From: Acidimicrobiia bacterium
GTDB lineage: Bacteria; Acidobacteriota; Vicinamibacteria; Vicinamibacterales; CAVVIG01
Direction of reading: 5' to 3'
Assembly: GCA_016871175.1 (NCBI GenBank)
Contig: VFZL01000002.1
Coordinates: 62,001-126,000 of the forward strand
DNA: 64,000 nt
The notes under the pieces were generated by a model. It searched no databases, had not been told where the DNA came from, and saw only the letters and a list, made by a program, of their open reading frames with translations. Positions 17,223 through 23,484 of this stretch are shown here, one piece after another (within the stretch, counting starts at the first letter, position 1; each line of letters starts with the position of its first letter). Both the position numbers and the translations under genes were made by a program.

Positions 17223-19667
17223 GTGACGACTCGGCCGGCCCGCGCGAAACGGCCTGCCAGAGGCGCGCGAGCGTCTGCGTTCGCAGTTCTGCTGCTCGCG
17301 ACGGTGTTCGCGGGACGCGAAGCCTCAGCCCAGTCGTCGACGACGAGTCGCACGGTGAGTGGCACCCCACCTCGAGCGCTGTTCGATCGCTACTGCGTCA
17401 CGTGTCACAACCAGCGAGCGAAGATTCCAGCGGCGCGACCGCTGGCTCTGGACACGGCCGATCTCGCGACTGTGGCCTCCGATCCGGATCTCTGGGAGAA
17501 CGTCGTCCGCAAGCTCCGGGCTGGCACGATGCCTCCTGCTGGTGCGGCCCGGCCTCCGGGCGATGAAGCCGATGCAGCCGCCACGTGGCTGGAGCGCGAG
17601 CTCGATCGTTCCGCCGACGCGCGGCCGGATCCCGGGCACGTTCCAGCGTTTCGCCGCCTCACGCGCACCGAATACCGGCACGCGGTTCGCGATCTCCTCG
17701 CGCTGGACGATCTACCCAAGGAGCTCGATATCGAGCTGTTGCTACCCGCCGACAACACCGTCGGGTTCGACACCATCGCCGACGCGCTGTTTGTCACGCC
17801 GACGCTGCTCGAGGGCTATCTGACCGCTGCGCGCAAGTTGGCGGCTATCGCCGTCGGCGACGCCTCCATGCCGCTCATCGTCGACACCTACCGGACCGCT
17901 CTCGAGCAACCGCAGGACGAGCAGTTCGCGGACCTGCCGGTCGGCACGCGGGGCGGCATGCGGATCCGGCGGTGGTTCCCGTTGACGGGCGAGTACCGGC
18001 TGCGCGTTGAGCTCGCGGGGCCGTTGCGCGAACGACACGAGCTCGAGGTGGCCGTTGACGGTGAGCGCGTCCAGCTGGTGCCGGTCGGCGGGCCCGCCGG
18101 TCAGCCACGTGCGTCCGCGTCCGGTGGCGAAGGTGACGGACTGGAGATCACTGTGCCGGTTCAAGCGGGGCAGCGCACCGTCGGTGTGTCGTTCGTGAAG
18201 CGAACGAGCGCCTATGCCGAGACATTGACGGTGCCGTTCAGGCGCGGTCGCGGGCTGGATCCGGCCGTCTCGGCGGTCACGATCAGCGGACCGTTCGGCA
18301 CGCGCAGCGCCGGAGACACCTCCAGTCGCCGTCGCGTGTTGAGGTGCGGTGCGACTGCTTCCGCGTCGAGTCGATCAGCAGGGGCGACCTCCGCGTCATC
18401 TCGCACAGTCGGGAGTGCGGACTGCGCGCGCCAGATCGTGCGATTGCTGGCGAAGCGCGCGTTCCGGCGGGCCGCCACGATCGAGGACGTGCACACGCTC
18501 ATGCCCTTCTTCGAAGCCGGGCGTCGCGGAGGGACGTTCGATGCGGGCATCCAACGCGTGATCGAACGCGTGCTCGTCAGCCCAGAGTTTCTCTTCCGCG
18601 TTGAGGGTGGGTCGAAGCGGCGCGATGGCGCCGCAGCGGCTCCGGTTTCCGACGTCGAGCTCGCGTCGCGCCTGTCATTCTTCCTCTGGAGCAGCATCCC
18701 AGACGATGAGCTGCTGGACGTCGCGATTGAGGGCCGACTGCGGGCGCCCGGCGTGTTCGAGGCGCAGGTGCGACGCATGCTCGCTGACCGGCGGTCCGAC
18801 GCGCTCGTCACGAACTTCGCGGCGCAGTGGCTGTATCTGTGGGACCTTCCGGCGAGGAGGCCCAACGATCGGTTGTTTCCCGACTTCGACGATGGGCTTC
18901 GCCAGGCCATGGTGCGCGAGACGGAGCTCTTCCTGGGCAGCGTCCTGCGCGAGAACCGTTCGGTCGTCGACCTGGTGTCGTCGCGCGATACCTTTCTCAA
19001 CGAGCGCTTGGCGCGCCACTACGGGATTCCCGGTATCTACGGCAGCGATTTCAGACGCATCACGTTGCCGGATGGCAGCGTCCGCGGTGGCCTACTTGGA
19101 CAGGGCAGCATCTTGACGTTGACCTCTTACGCCACGCGCACCTCGCCCGTCGTTCGTGGCAAGTGGATTCTCGAGAACATCCTGGGGTCGCCGCCACCAC
19201 CGCCGCCACCGAACGTGCCGGCATTGAAGACAGACGACAATCCGAAGCAGACGCGATCGATGCGCGAACGGATGACACAGCACCGCGCGAATCCGGTGTG
19301 CGCGAGCTGCCACGCGCGGATGGATCCGCTGGGGTTCGCGCTCGAGAACTTCGACGCCATTGGACGCTGGCGCGCGCAGGGCGATGGCGGGACCGCGATC
19401 GACGCGTCGGGGACGCTTCCCGATGGCACCGCGTTCAAGGATCCGCTGAGCCTGCGAGCGGCCCTGGTGCAGCGTCCCGAACGTTTCGTCACGACGTTCA
19501 CGGAAAAACTGTTGAACTACGCGATCGGCCGGAACCTGATCGCCGCCGACTCGGCCGCGGTCCGTGCTATCGTTCGGGAGGCGTTCCGAGACGGCTATCG
19601 GTTCGAGAAGCTGGTGCTCGGGATCGTGGCGAGCAGGCCATTTCAGCTGCGGAGGTCGGAGTCATGA
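17223..19667 (+). CDS. Exported c-type haem protein, DUF1587/DUF1592/DUF1588/DUF1585 family
   Basis: 814 residues from a GTG. After a signal peptide there is a cytochrome-like CVTCH site (residues 58-62). The DUF1587 region follows (FRRLTRTEYRHAVRDLLAL), then a carbohydrate-binding-like middle, the AKRAFRRAAT segment, DUF1592 (ASRLSFFLWSSIPDDELL), DUF1588 (RGGLLGQGSIL, TSPVVRGKWILENILG) with a second CASCH site at residues 693-697, and DUF1585 at the end. The family is typical of Planctomycetes and Acidobacteriota and is thought to oxidise polymers or sugars in the periplasm, but its reaction is unproven. The stop overlaps the DUF1552 start by four bases (ATGA). Confidence 0.9.
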   Translation: MTTRPARAKRPARGARASAFAVLLLATVFAGREASAQSSTTSRTVSGTPPRALFDRYCVTCHNQRAKIPAARPLALDTADLATVASDPDLWENVVRKLRAGTMPPAGAARPPGDEADAAATWLERELDRSADARPDPGHVPAFRRLTRTEYRHAVRDLLALDDLPKELDIELLLPADNTVGFDTIADALFVTPTLLEGYLTAARKLAAIAVGDASMPLIVDTYRTALEQPQDEQFADLPVGTRGGMRIRRWFPLTGEYRLRVELAGPLRERHELEVAVDGERVQLVPVGGPAGQPRASASGGEGDGLEITVPVQAGQRTVGVSFVKRTSAYAETLTVPFRRGRGLDPAVSAVTISGPFGTRSAGDTSSRRRVLRCGATASASSRSAGATSASSRTVGSADCARQIVRLLAKRAFRRAATIEDVHTLMPFFEAGRRGGTFDAGIQRVIERVLVSPEFLFRVEGGSKRRDGAAAAPVSDVELASRLSFFLWSSIPDDELLDVAIEGRLRAPGVFEAQVRRMLADRRSDALVTNFAAQWLYLWDLPARRPNDRLFPDFDDGLRQAMVRETELFLGSVLRENRSVVDLVSSRDTFLNERLARHYGIPGIYGSDFRRITLPDGSVRGGLLGQGSILTLTSYATRTSPVVRGKWILENILGSPPPPPPPNVPALKTDDNPKQTRSMRERMTQHRANPVCASCHARMDPLGFALENFDAIGRWRAQGDGGTAIDASGTLPDGTAFKDPLSLRAALVQRPERFVTTFTEKLLNYAIGRNLIAADSAAVRAIVREAFRDGYRFEKLVLGIVASRPFQLRRSES

Positions 19668-21016
19668 TCGTCACGCGACGGATGCTGCCACGTCGCACGT
19701 TCCTGCGCGGCACAGGGGCGACGCTGGCCCTACCACTGCTGGACGCTATGATTCCGGCGTTGACGGCTCAGAGCAGGACCGCGGCACGGCCGGTGCCCCG
19801 CCTTGGTTTCATCTACACGCCAAACGGCGTGATTCAGGCACAGTGGACGCCGGTCGACGATGGACGCCAGTTCACCTTCTCGCCAATTCTGAAGCCGCTC
19901 GAGCCGCTTCGCGATCGCGTGCTCATCGTGTCCGGGTTGGCGCATCGACAGGCCGAGTCGTTCGGCGACGGCAACGCGGATCACCATCGCGCCACCGCAG
20001 CGTGGCTCAGCGGCGTACACGCGTGGACGAGAACCACCGGGCTGGAGATCCGCCTCGACACGACTGCGGACCAGATTGCAGCCGCGGCCATCGGGCGCGA
20101 CACCCGGCTGCCGTCCCTCGAGCTGGCCCTCGAGAGCGCCACCTCGATCGCATGCGATAGCGGCGCCGATTGCTTCTACTCCAACACCGTGTCGTGGCGG
20201 ACGCCGACCAATCCGCTACCGGCTGAGATCCATCCTCGAGTGGTGTTCGAGCGCTTGTTCGGCGATGGAGGAACCCCTGCGCAGCGACGTGCCCAGATGC
20301 AGCGAAGCGCGAGCCTCCTCGATTCGCTGACAGACGAAGTTGCGCGTCTGACCCGTCGCGTGGGCACGGGCGACCGCGCGAAGATCGACGAGTATCTCGA
20401 GTCAGTCCGTTCGCTGGAGGTGCGCATCACGCGAACCGACGCCGAGAGCGCCATCGCCTCGGTGGAGTTGCCCGATCGTCCGTCCGACATGCCGGCGACC
20501 ATCGACGAGCACGCCCGATCGATGTTCGACCTCATCACGTTGGCGTTCCGGGCCGACCTCACGCGCGTGTTCACGCTGCTCGTCGGGCGCGAGCAGACCA
20601 ATCGCACGTACCCTGAGATCGGCGTCCCGGATGGGCACCACGCGGTGTCGCACCATCAGCACGATCCCCAGATCGTGTCCAAGAAGGCCAAGATCGACAC
20701 CTACCACGCGTCGCTGCTCGGACGGTTCCTGCGGCAGCTCGCGGACACGGCCGACGGGGATGGCTCGCTGCTCGACCGCTCGATGATTCTGTACGGGAGC
20801 GGTCTGGGTGATGGCGACCAGCACTCACACCATGACCTCCCGGTGCTCGTGGCCGGCGGTGGGGCCGGCCGTTCAGTCGGTGGCCAGCACCTGCGGCTCC
20901 GCGAAACACCGATGACCAACCTGCTCGTCACCCTGCTGAACAGAGCCGGCGTGCCCTTGGAGAAGCTCGGCGACAGCACGGGCCCACTGTCCATCGAGCC
21001 GTTGGCGTCGATCTAG
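19664..21016 (+). CDS. DUF1552 exported protein, Tat signal
   Basis: 450 residues from the ATG at 19664, which overlaps the DUF1592 stop. The N-terminus has a twin-arginine signal (RRTFLRGTGATLALPLLDAM). Family motifs follow: PRLGFIYTPNGVIQAQWTP, HHRATAAWLSG, FGDGDQHSHHDLPVLVAGG-like residues near the end, and a conserved GDxxxHxxHxxPxxxxGG pattern. It resembles DUF1501-like sulfatase-fold proteins in its C-terminus. DUF1552 genes almost always follow DUF1592 genes and probably act on the same unknown substrate. The Tat export implies a folded, possibly cofactor-containing protein. Confidence 0.9.
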   Translation: MIVTRRMLPRRTFLRGTGATLALPLLDAMIPALTAQSRTAARPVPRLGFIYTPNGVIQAQWTPVDDGRQFTFSPILKPLEPLRDRVLIVSGLAHRQAESFGDGNADHHRATAAWLSGVHAWTRTTGLEIRLDTTADQIAAAAIGRDTRLPSLELALESATSIACDSGADCFYSNTVSWRTPTNPLPAEIHPRVVFERLFGDGGTPAQRRAQMQRSASLLDSLTDEVARLTRRVGTGDRAKIDEYLESVRSLEVRITRTDAESAIASVELPDRPSDMPATIDEHARSMFDLITLAFRADLTRVFTLLVGREQTNRTYPEIGVPDGHHAVSHHQHDPQIVSKKAKIDTYHASLLGRFLRQLADTADGDGSLLDRSMILYGSGLGDGDQHSHHDLPVLVAGGGAGRSVGGQHLRLRETPMTNLLVTLLNRAGVPLEKLGDSTGPLSIEPLASI

Positions 21017-21080: not shown

Positions 21081-21518
21081 TCACCCGTCGATCCATTTGC
21101 GCGGACCAGGCCCGCGCCGGCCCAAGCGATCTCGCGGGTTCGCAAGCGCGCATCGATCGAGCGACAGACAGCCGCAGCCGATGCACTGCGTCAAGCCGGC
21201 TCGAAGCCGTTCCAACTCGGCGATTCGTTCGTTGACGCGGGACTGCCATGCGGCGGACAGCCTCGCCCAGTGGGCGCGGTCTGGCGTCCGGTTCTGGGGC
21301 AGCATCGCCAGCTGCACGCGTATCTCCTCGAGCGACAGCCCCACCTTCTGCGCAAAGACGATGAACGCGACTCGGCGGAGTACTGCCCTCGAGAATCGGC
21401 GGTGGCCCGCGTTCGAGCGCTCCGAGTGAATCAGCCCAGCGGCCTCGTAGAACCGCAGAGCTGAAGCGGCGACGCCGCTTCGCTCTGCGAGCTCACCAAT
21501 GGTCAGGGCCTTGTCCAT
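21081..21518 (-). CDS. soxR: Redox-sensing MerR-family regulator SoxR
   Basis: 145 residues with a MerR helix-turn-helix (TIGELAERSGVAASALRFYE) and a dimerisation helix. The [2Fe-2S] cysteine set is at C112, C115, C117 and C123, spaced as in E. coli SoxR (CIGCGCLSLDRC). It is a cytoplasmic activator that responds to redox-active compounds through oxidation of the cluster. It is divergent from the SDR-queA-like operon, and the 9-2-9 inverted repeat between them is its likely operator. Confidence 0.93.
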   Translation of the reverse strand: MDKALTIGELAERSGVAASALRFYEAAGLIHSERSNAGHRRFSRAVLRRVAFIVFAQKVGLSLEEIRVQLAMLPQNRTPDRAHWARLSAAWQSRVNERIAELERLRAGLTQCIGCGCLSLDRCALANPRDRLGRRGPGPRKWIDG

Positions 21519-21542: not shown

Positions 21543-21573
21543 TTGACTTCAAGTGAACTTGAAGTTCGACGCT
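21543..21573 (+). promoter_or_regulatory. SoxR-type promoter/operator with long spacer
   Basis: A perfect inverted repeat ACTTCAAGT-GA-ACTTGAAGT lies at 21546-21565, very close to the known SoxR box. It sits between a TTGACT -35 hexamer (21543-21548) and a weak -10-like GACGCT (21568-21573). This gives the 19-base spacer typical of MerR-family activated promoters. The orientation drives the SDR gene and probably also controls soxR. Confidence 0.85.
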
Positions 21574-21615
21574 GGACTGGACGCACTGAAGCGTCCACTC
21601 AGCGAGGGTCTTGCC

Positions 21616-22377
21616 ATGAGCACAGCGGCCGCGACATCCACACAATCCAGGTCCAACCCGAAACGTTCTCGGGTGGCGATCGTCACCGGCGCGAGCCGAG
21701 GCCTGGGCCTCGTGATCGCTCACGCGCTCGAGGCCCTTGGCCACCAGCTCGTGATCGGAGCCCGTGGGGAGCGGGCTCTCGAGGGCGCGCGCGAGGAGCT
21801 CCTTCAACACGGTTCTGACGTCGTCGCCATCCGCGGCGATGTGAGTGACGGCTCCGCTCGCGCGCGGTGGGTTGACGCCGCTCGCGGATGTGGAGGGCTA
21901 GATGTGCTCGTCAACAACGCGTCGATCCTCGGCGGCCTCGGAGCGCTGGCCGAGCTCGACGTCCAGCGCTTCGACCGCGTGCTCGCCGCCAACACGGTGG
22001 CGCCGATGGCGCTAACGCAGCTCGCGCTCCCGCTGCTCGAGGCGCGGCACGGCCTCATCGTCAACATCACGAGTGATGCCGCGCAAGGTGCGTTTCCCGG
22101 TTGGGGCGGTTACGGCGCCAGTAAAGCCGCGCTCGAGCTGATGACCCGAACGCTCGCCGAGGAGCTTCGCGAGCGCACGGTGTCGGCGGTGCTGGTCGAT
22201 CCAGGAGACCTGCGCACGGCGCTGCATCAAGAGGCCTTCCCGAACGAGGACATCTCGGATCGTCCGGTCCCTGAGGTGACGCGACCGTTCTGGGACTGGC
22301 TGTTTCAGCAGGACCTCGAGACGATCCACGGACGCCGGTTCGCAGCGCAACAGGAGGCTCTTCATGGCATCCGATAG
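21616..22377 (+). CDS. Short-chain dehydrogenase/reductase, probably SoxR-controlled
   Basis: 253 residues from the ATG at 21616; an earlier in-frame start at 21553 would lie inside the operator and is rejected. The cofactor motif TGASRGLG and NNAS motif are present, and the catalytic set is SD...YGASK (Ser in NITSD, Tyr and Lys in GYGASKAAL). It reduces or oxidises an unidentified small molecule, possibly a quinone or redox-active compound given its SoxR operator. It overlaps the downstream queA-like gene by 14 bases. Confidence 0.85.
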   Translation: MSTAAATSTQSRSNPKRSRVAIVTGASRGLGLVIAHALEALGHQLVIGARGERALEGAREELLQHGSDVVAIRGDVSDGSARARWVDAARGCGGLDVLVNNASILGGLGALAELDVQRFDRVLAANTVAPMALTQLALPLLEARHGLIVNITSDAAQGAFPGWGGYGASKAALELMTRTLAEELRERTVSAVLVDPGDLRTALHQEAFPNEDISDRPVPEVTRPFWDWLFQQDLETIHGRRFAAQQEALHGIR

Positions 22378-23484
22378 CCTCGCTCTTGCCCGTGAGACGC
22401 TCGACCCGTCACTCGAAGCGACCGAGCCGCCAGAGGCACGTGGATTGCGACGAGACGACGTCCGTCTCTTGGTTTCTGATCTCGAGCATGACGCGGTGGC
22501 GCACGCGCATTTTCGCGATCTCCCGGAGTGGCTCCATGCCGGGGACGTTCTCGTTGTGAACACGAGCGGCACACTGAACGCTGCTGTTCCGGCGCGGTTA
22601 CCGAGTGGGACCGAGCGTGTCGTCCATCTGTCGACGGCCCTGCCCGGCGGCTTCTGGACCCTCGAGGTCCGAGAGCCGTCATCGGTGGGGACGCGACTCA
22701 GTCGCGAGCCGCTTTCCGGAAGCGTCCTCGAGCTGCCGGCCGGTGGTCGCGCGACCGTTCTGGCACCGTATCCTCATGTGGGTCGGTCGGCTCATGCATC
22801 GCGCTTGTGGCTGGCGTCACTCGAGCTACCCGAGCCCGTGCGCGCCTATCTCGACCGGGTTGGCTCGCCGATCCGCTATGGATACGTTCCACGCGCGTGG
22901 CCGAACGCCATGTACCAAACGGTATTCGCCATCGAAGCCGGGAGCGCCGAGATGCCTTCGGCCGGCCGGCCGTTCACAGCGGAGCTGGTGACGCGCCTGG
23001 TCGCGCGCGGCGTGCAGGTCGCCCCCCTGCTGCTGCACACCGGCGTGGCGAGTCTGGAAGACCACGAACTGCCGTACGAGGAGTGGTATCGCGTGCCGGA
23101 GGAGATGGCCGCGCTGGTCAATGCCGCCGGACGGTCCGGTCGGCGCGTGATCGCGGTCGGGACAACGGTGGTCCGCGCACTGGAGACGGTGACGGACGCC
23201 AGGGGCCATACGGCGGCCGGGCAGGGTTGGACGACGCTCGTGATCACACGTGATCGCCCGCTCCGCGCAGTCACCGGACTCATCACAGGCTTTCACGAGC
23301 CCAAAGCGACGCATCTCGCGATACTCGACGCGTCTTCGCCAGCAGCGGTTCATCCGAGCGCGGCCGAACTGAACTCTGCCGCGCCTACGCCGTCGCACGC
23401 GATCGGGGTTACTTATGGCACGAGTTCGGAGACGTGCATTTGATCCTGCCGAGATCTCGATCCACCTCAGATCAAGTCCCGTGA
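22364..23484 (+). pseudogene. QueA-like S-adenosylmethionine:tRNA ribosyltransferase-isomerase, frameshifted near the 3' end
   Basis: The start is an ATG after AGGAGG inside the SDR end. The protein follows QueA: RRDDVRLLVSDLE, LHAGDVLVVNTSGTLNAAVPAR, AYLDRVGSPIRYGYVP, YQTVFA, GRPFTAELVTRL, LLLHTGVASLE and VGTTVVRALE. It makes epoxyqueuosine in tRNA in canonical members. After HLAILDA the frame fails and would end at 23443. One base inserted near 23331 restores VFASSGSSERGRTEL and then GYLWHEFGDVHLIL, the normal QueA end, stopping at 23482-23484 with about 373 residues. It is a divergent member, since the canonical N-terminal start motif is absent. The location in a SoxR operon is unusual for queA, so the substrate may differ. 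Confidence 0.8.

Follow-up and report, generated by a model that had tools for sequence, protein, structure and literature searches.

Why should a SoxR-type promoter precede a gene of the QueA family? The question is raised by a locus in a 64,000-nucleotide stretch of DNA (the window) from the 4.44-Mb genome of a soil bacterium, where an SDR gene and a queA-like gene form an operon on the forward strand (21616-23443) and soxR lies divergent from it. In the searchable literature QueA has a single role, queuosine synthesis; our search found no paper on a QueA paralog outside queuosine, and H1 (Nonomuraea) was without annotation. The occurrence of a common protein family with this fold where TGT and QueG are lacking would give an unusual S-adenosylmethionine (SAM) chemistry a second use. 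A first-pass annotation of the sequence left a choice between tRNA modification under redox control and a QueA subgroup that acts on another substrate. We favor the latter, since the window genome has canonical QueA, TGT, and QueG, and eight other genomes carry the QueA-like protein with no TGT match, no QueG above the cut-off, and no full canonical QueA.

A SoxR-type promoter and a frameshifted queA-like gene

The protein encoded at 21081-21518 on the reverse strand, divergent from the operon, scored 189.9 bits against the SoxR equivalog model TIGR01950 (cut-off, 116.9) and contains the cysteine cluster CIGCGCLSLDRC, of the form CX2CXCX5C; both hallmarks of SoxR are thus present. Direct reading of the forward strand located a -35 element, TTGACT, at 21543-21548, kept in all six soxR-linked loci described below, and a -10-like element, GACGCT, at 21568-21573, 19 bp past the -35 element and spaced alike in the relatives. 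The 20-base SoxR box, ACTTCAAGTGAACTTGAAGT, occupies 21546-21565 within this 19-bp spacer, as expected of a SoxR promoter, and is kept in the Vicinamibacteria loci. It is the sole match in the window at three mismatches or fewer (none in 100 shuffles), and its perfect core, TCAAGTNNACTTGA, occurs once in the whole 4.44-Mb genome, in this box; one-mismatch sites elsewhere in the genome were close in number to the control count. The near-ideal box with a 19-base spacer reported in the first-pass annotation is therefore confirmed, the box being perfect and unique in the window, and these sequence features suggest control of the operon by SoxR.

The SDR gene starts at the ATG at 21616 and runs to 22377 on the forward strand (253 residues; PF00106, 149.6 bits). 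The queA-like gene follows on the same strand from the ATG at 22364 to 23443 (359 residues as read, with the C terminus out of frame; PF02547, 208 bits). From these open reading frame (ORF) coordinates the two frames overlap by 14 bases (22364-22377, forward strand), as the earlier description of the pair had it. Large ORFs at 17223-21016 adjoin the locus. An OsmC-like gene of a peroxidase family (PF02566; 23472-23963, reverse strand) overlaps the end of the queA-like region; it was ruled out as an operon member, being convergent and on the opposite strand.

The last residues of the window queA-like protein, as read up to the stop at 23443, are unlike those of its relatives. The ending common to the relatives, GYLWHEFGDVHLIL, is coded in the window by another frame, in a conserved C-terminal segment (ELCRAYAVARDRGYLWHEFGDVHLIL...) at 23371-23484 on the forward strand, which is intact in the relatives L037 and L038, both of which carry an intact queA-like gene. 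The end at 23484 assigned in the first-pass annotation thus crosses a frameshift that went unremarked. The copy represents either a real disruption or a mis-assembly. That it is decaying or mis-assembled, so that the shift deletes the conserved C terminus, leaving the SDR as the operon's sole product, is a serious possibility to which we give somewhat less than even weight: the WHEFGD motif, invariant across a 58-member alignment, is out of frame here, the shift sits near a short (5-base) tandem repeat, and the cassette is sporadic within its class. Against decay, the frame is free of stops ahead of the shift, the main part of the protein is conserved, and, the genome being a draft, an assembly error is equally likely. 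Both possibilities are compatible with the family-level conclusion, which is unaffected. Because the window copy is frameshifted, the functional argument rests on the family.

The QueA-like proteins and canonical QueA

The window protein belongs to the QueA superfamily (208 bits against PF02547, with a gathering score of 25) but falls far under the cut-offs of the QueA equivalog models TIGR00113 (113.5 of 267 bits) and NF001140 (141 of 324 bits). The intact relative L037 also scored under both, at 134 and 165 bits. Apart from these sub-cut-off matches to the QueA models, no NCBIfam model matches the QueA-like proteins, so they are easily misread as queuosine genes. When 80 QueA-like and 31 canonical proteins were placed in one tree, the two formed separate groups with a support of 100. 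None of the marks of canonical QueA, namely, an equivalog score, clustering in the tree, and occurrence only with TGT or QueG, was found for the family.

The structure predicted for L037 (pLDDT 91) has the QueA fold, with 1vky, 1yy3, and 1wdi as its best matches in the PDB. With QueA, the S-adenosylmethionine:tRNA ribosyltransferase-isomerase (PF02547, TIGR00113), the family shares fold, length, and some 46 positions conserved in both families, including residues of the GS, P, AG, LHxG, GTT, R, LE, and GD motifs; it differs from QueA as a separate clade with changed motif residues and an SDR partner, found also without TGT and QueG. Some 20 positions are fixed differently between the two, among them glutamate and histidine changes within the most conserved motifs: E196, E235, E312, H317, E346, and a C-terminal histidine, all specific to the QueA-like family, supplant residues fixed in canonical QueA. 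The placement of these residues would fit a family that has abandoned SAM ribosyl transfer for a different reaction, in which the new glutamates and histidines would perhaps bind a metal. We consider such a change of chemistry unlikely, as the metal site is putative and the roughly 46 shared positions have been retained. The use of SAM by the QueA-like enzyme is inferred from homology, in a protein that departs from canonical QueA at many of the positions fixed there, and the most economical guess at its reaction is transfer of the ribosyl part of SAM.

Two further sets of PF02547 proteins were seen. One Bacteroidetes metagenome-assembled genome (MAG) encodes a third such protein (G229:C36:52147-53379; 302 bits), in score between a canonical copy (435 bits) and a QueA-like copy (236 bits), and this protein may perhaps represent a further subgroup. 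Second PF02547 copies in five genomes from one family of the class (G001, G002, G003, G005, and G009) share 35 to 39% identity with the window protein and by that measure appear to fall outside the SDR-paired group.

Queuosine genes in genomes that carry the family

The first-pass annotation had proposed looking for a canonical queA elsewhere in the genome, together with tgt and other queuosine genes. The window genome proved to encode canonical QueA (428 bits), TGT (512 bits), and QueG (316 bits). No TGT match was found in 8 of the 50 genomes with a QueA-like protein (G216, G225, G226, G227, G232, G234, G236, and G242), whereas all 14 control genomes yielded TGT. QueG was above the cut-off in none of the eight, with weak matches in G226 (21.7 bits) and G232 (54.2 bits), in a search directed at QueG, to which QueH is an alternative. 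A full canonical QueA was likewise found in none of them; seven have one PF02547 match each, the QueA-like protein, and G234 has, where a contig ends, an additional PF02547 fragment (67 bits). G232 is a cultured strain, Phytohabitans maris, and the other seven are MAGs, as are most of the genomes surveyed; the absence of a gene is weak evidence in any single one.

Two MAGs, G217 and G221, show another pattern, in which TGT and QueG are present and the only PF02547 copy is QueA-like. On paper they combine a complete pathway with only this form of the enzyme, which the first-pass annotation had named as grounds for abandoning its proposal. In the family to which G217 belongs, however, 36 of 39 sampled genomes have a match above 400 bits, and because nearly all sampled relatives possess canonical QueA, its lack in G217 is likely a gap in the MAG, the simpler explanation.

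These distributions bear on the proposal that redox stress induces the QueA-like enzyme and that tRNA is what it modifies, whether preQ1-tRNA or some other position. The proposal draws on homology to a tRNA enzyme of like fold, on the two MAGs just described, and on the perturbed metal and oxidative-stress homeostasis of Escherichia coli without queuosine (PMC9508795). The eight genomes that carry the family with neither TGT detected nor QueG above the cut-off, the canonical set in the window genome, and the canonical QueA of the relatives of G217 all argue against it, as does the strict association with an SDR. To our knowledge, no SDR has a role in queuosine synthesis. We regard the proposal as improbable, though some tRNA besides preQ1-tRNA may be a substrate, and a reaction on a substrate outside the queuosine pathway as the better account of these genomes.

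SDR pairing and linkage to putative redox regulators

In a survey of the class, 154 of 193 genomes were matched, almost all via canonical QueA. Among the matches listed, relatives with at least 60% identity occurred in G127, G033, and G064, with a fragment in G042; the first three have soxR, the box, the SDR, and the QueA-like gene in identical order. A scan of GTDB contigs, from which 80 loci were kept, extended the family to Chloroflexota, Actinomycetota, Gemmatimonadota, Deinococcota, Bacteroidota, and other phyla. Neighborhoods were derived by simple ORF scoring for 79 of these loci (one near-duplicate was left out). An SDR lies directly upstream, on the same strand, in 75 of the 79, and the remaining 4 end at a contig edge; the pairing therefore holds wherever enough sequence is available on the upstream side (75 of 75 loci). 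The window SDR has the features of a classical SDR (TGASRGLG, S153, Y166, and K170), the last three residues being invariant across 30 homologues. In several lineages the SDR bears a C-terminal VOC (glyoxalase-type) domain, a fusion confirmed by Pfam in four proteins; 12 of the SDRs are long, and an automatic count gave 6 VOC tails but missed variants.

Conservation of the linkage to soxR, which the first-pass annotation had proposed to examine, proved mixed. The linkage occurs in six loci (the window, L037, L038, L096, L115, and L100); in each, soxR is divergent and the 19-bp spacer holds a SoxR-type box, degenerate in L100. These are a minority overall, which rules out SoxR as a universal partner, and the conserved feature is the pairing with the SDR; nevertheless, of the 8 among 50 surveyed genomes with a true SoxR (above the cut-off), 5 have it adjacent to the QueA-like pair. 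The tree hinted that three lineages had recruited SoxR independently; this idea was dropped, as grouping the six soxR-linked rows gave a better likelihood (p-AU, 0.65). The arrangement resembles that in non-enteric bacteria such as Streptomyces coelicolor, where SoxR acts directly before redox enzymes with no soxS, on a regulon described as six genes for a transporter and redox enzymes (PMC4146615). The targets named in the part of that account drawn on here include no gene of the QueA family; in the window, by contrast, soxR is adjacent and divergent.

Other regulators adjoin the family in other genomes. A SufR-like protein is next to the QueA-like gene in 12 loci, 9 identified from gene calls and 3 by coordinates. 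Two that were tested scored 104 to 112 bits against the SufR model TIGR02702, under its cut-off of 178.8, and have the conserved C-terminal Cys/His pattern of SufR; the window has no such protein. A GAF kinase with the motif C-x-C-x(17-20)-C, usually accompanied by a response regulator, is linked in 14 loci and lies within 10 kb in 5 more genomes (about 19). Among 24 scored genomes, 15 have a GAF kinase within 10 kb of the QueA-like gene, mostly as one close copy per genome. The spacing of its cysteines resembles the AirS motif, C-X7-C-X-C-X17-C, of the GAF/[2Fe-2S] kinase system AirSR (PMC4601167), but the first cysteine is missing, the last spacing is 17 to 20 residues, and the kinase occurs in lineages other than that of the window. 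From these patterns we infer that the SufR-like protein and the GAF kinase may each hold an Fe-S cluster. Regulator adjacency is far above chance, with probabilities of 1e-9 to 1e-27 under independence, which are too small because the genomes are related. A function in stress physiology is suggested by the variety of putative redox regulators linked to the family.

Since the two enzymes occur together in many phyla, some of the genomes being without the tRNA pathway, the QueA-like family probably does something other than queuosine synthesis during redox stress, most likely acting on a non-queuosine substrate in a redox-induced reaction. For the window, we put at roughly 60% the reading that a SoxR-controlled two-gene operon encodes an enzyme pair whose substrate, either a metabolite or a xenobiotic, is not part of the queuosine pathway. 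Redox-active compounds would oxidize the [2Fe-2S] cluster of SoxR, which, seated in the overlong 19-bp spacer, would remodel the promoter and switch on the SDR and the QueA-like enzyme together. The latter, having kept the QueA fold and core, would probably transfer or isomerize the ribosyl part of SAM with a different acceptor, and the SDR, VOC-fused in some lineages, would oxidize or reduce the same molecule. A broader version we advance tentatively, at a little under even odds: a QueA-derived family that places the ribosyl part of SAM on a metabolite or xenobiotic other than tRNA, that invariably has an SDR as partner, and that is wired to SoxR, SufR-like, or GAF Fe-S-type sensors according to phylum, as a redox-stress pathway.

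Two minor observations concern individual neighborhoods. A Thermomicrobiales MAG has two QueA-like loci (L045 and L047, G200:C41) 7.3 kb apart with identical scores, either a tandem duplication or an assembly artifact. In L040, L043, and L085, a gene of the LysE-type exporter family lies downstream of the queA-like gene; the Pfam check of this assignment covered L040.
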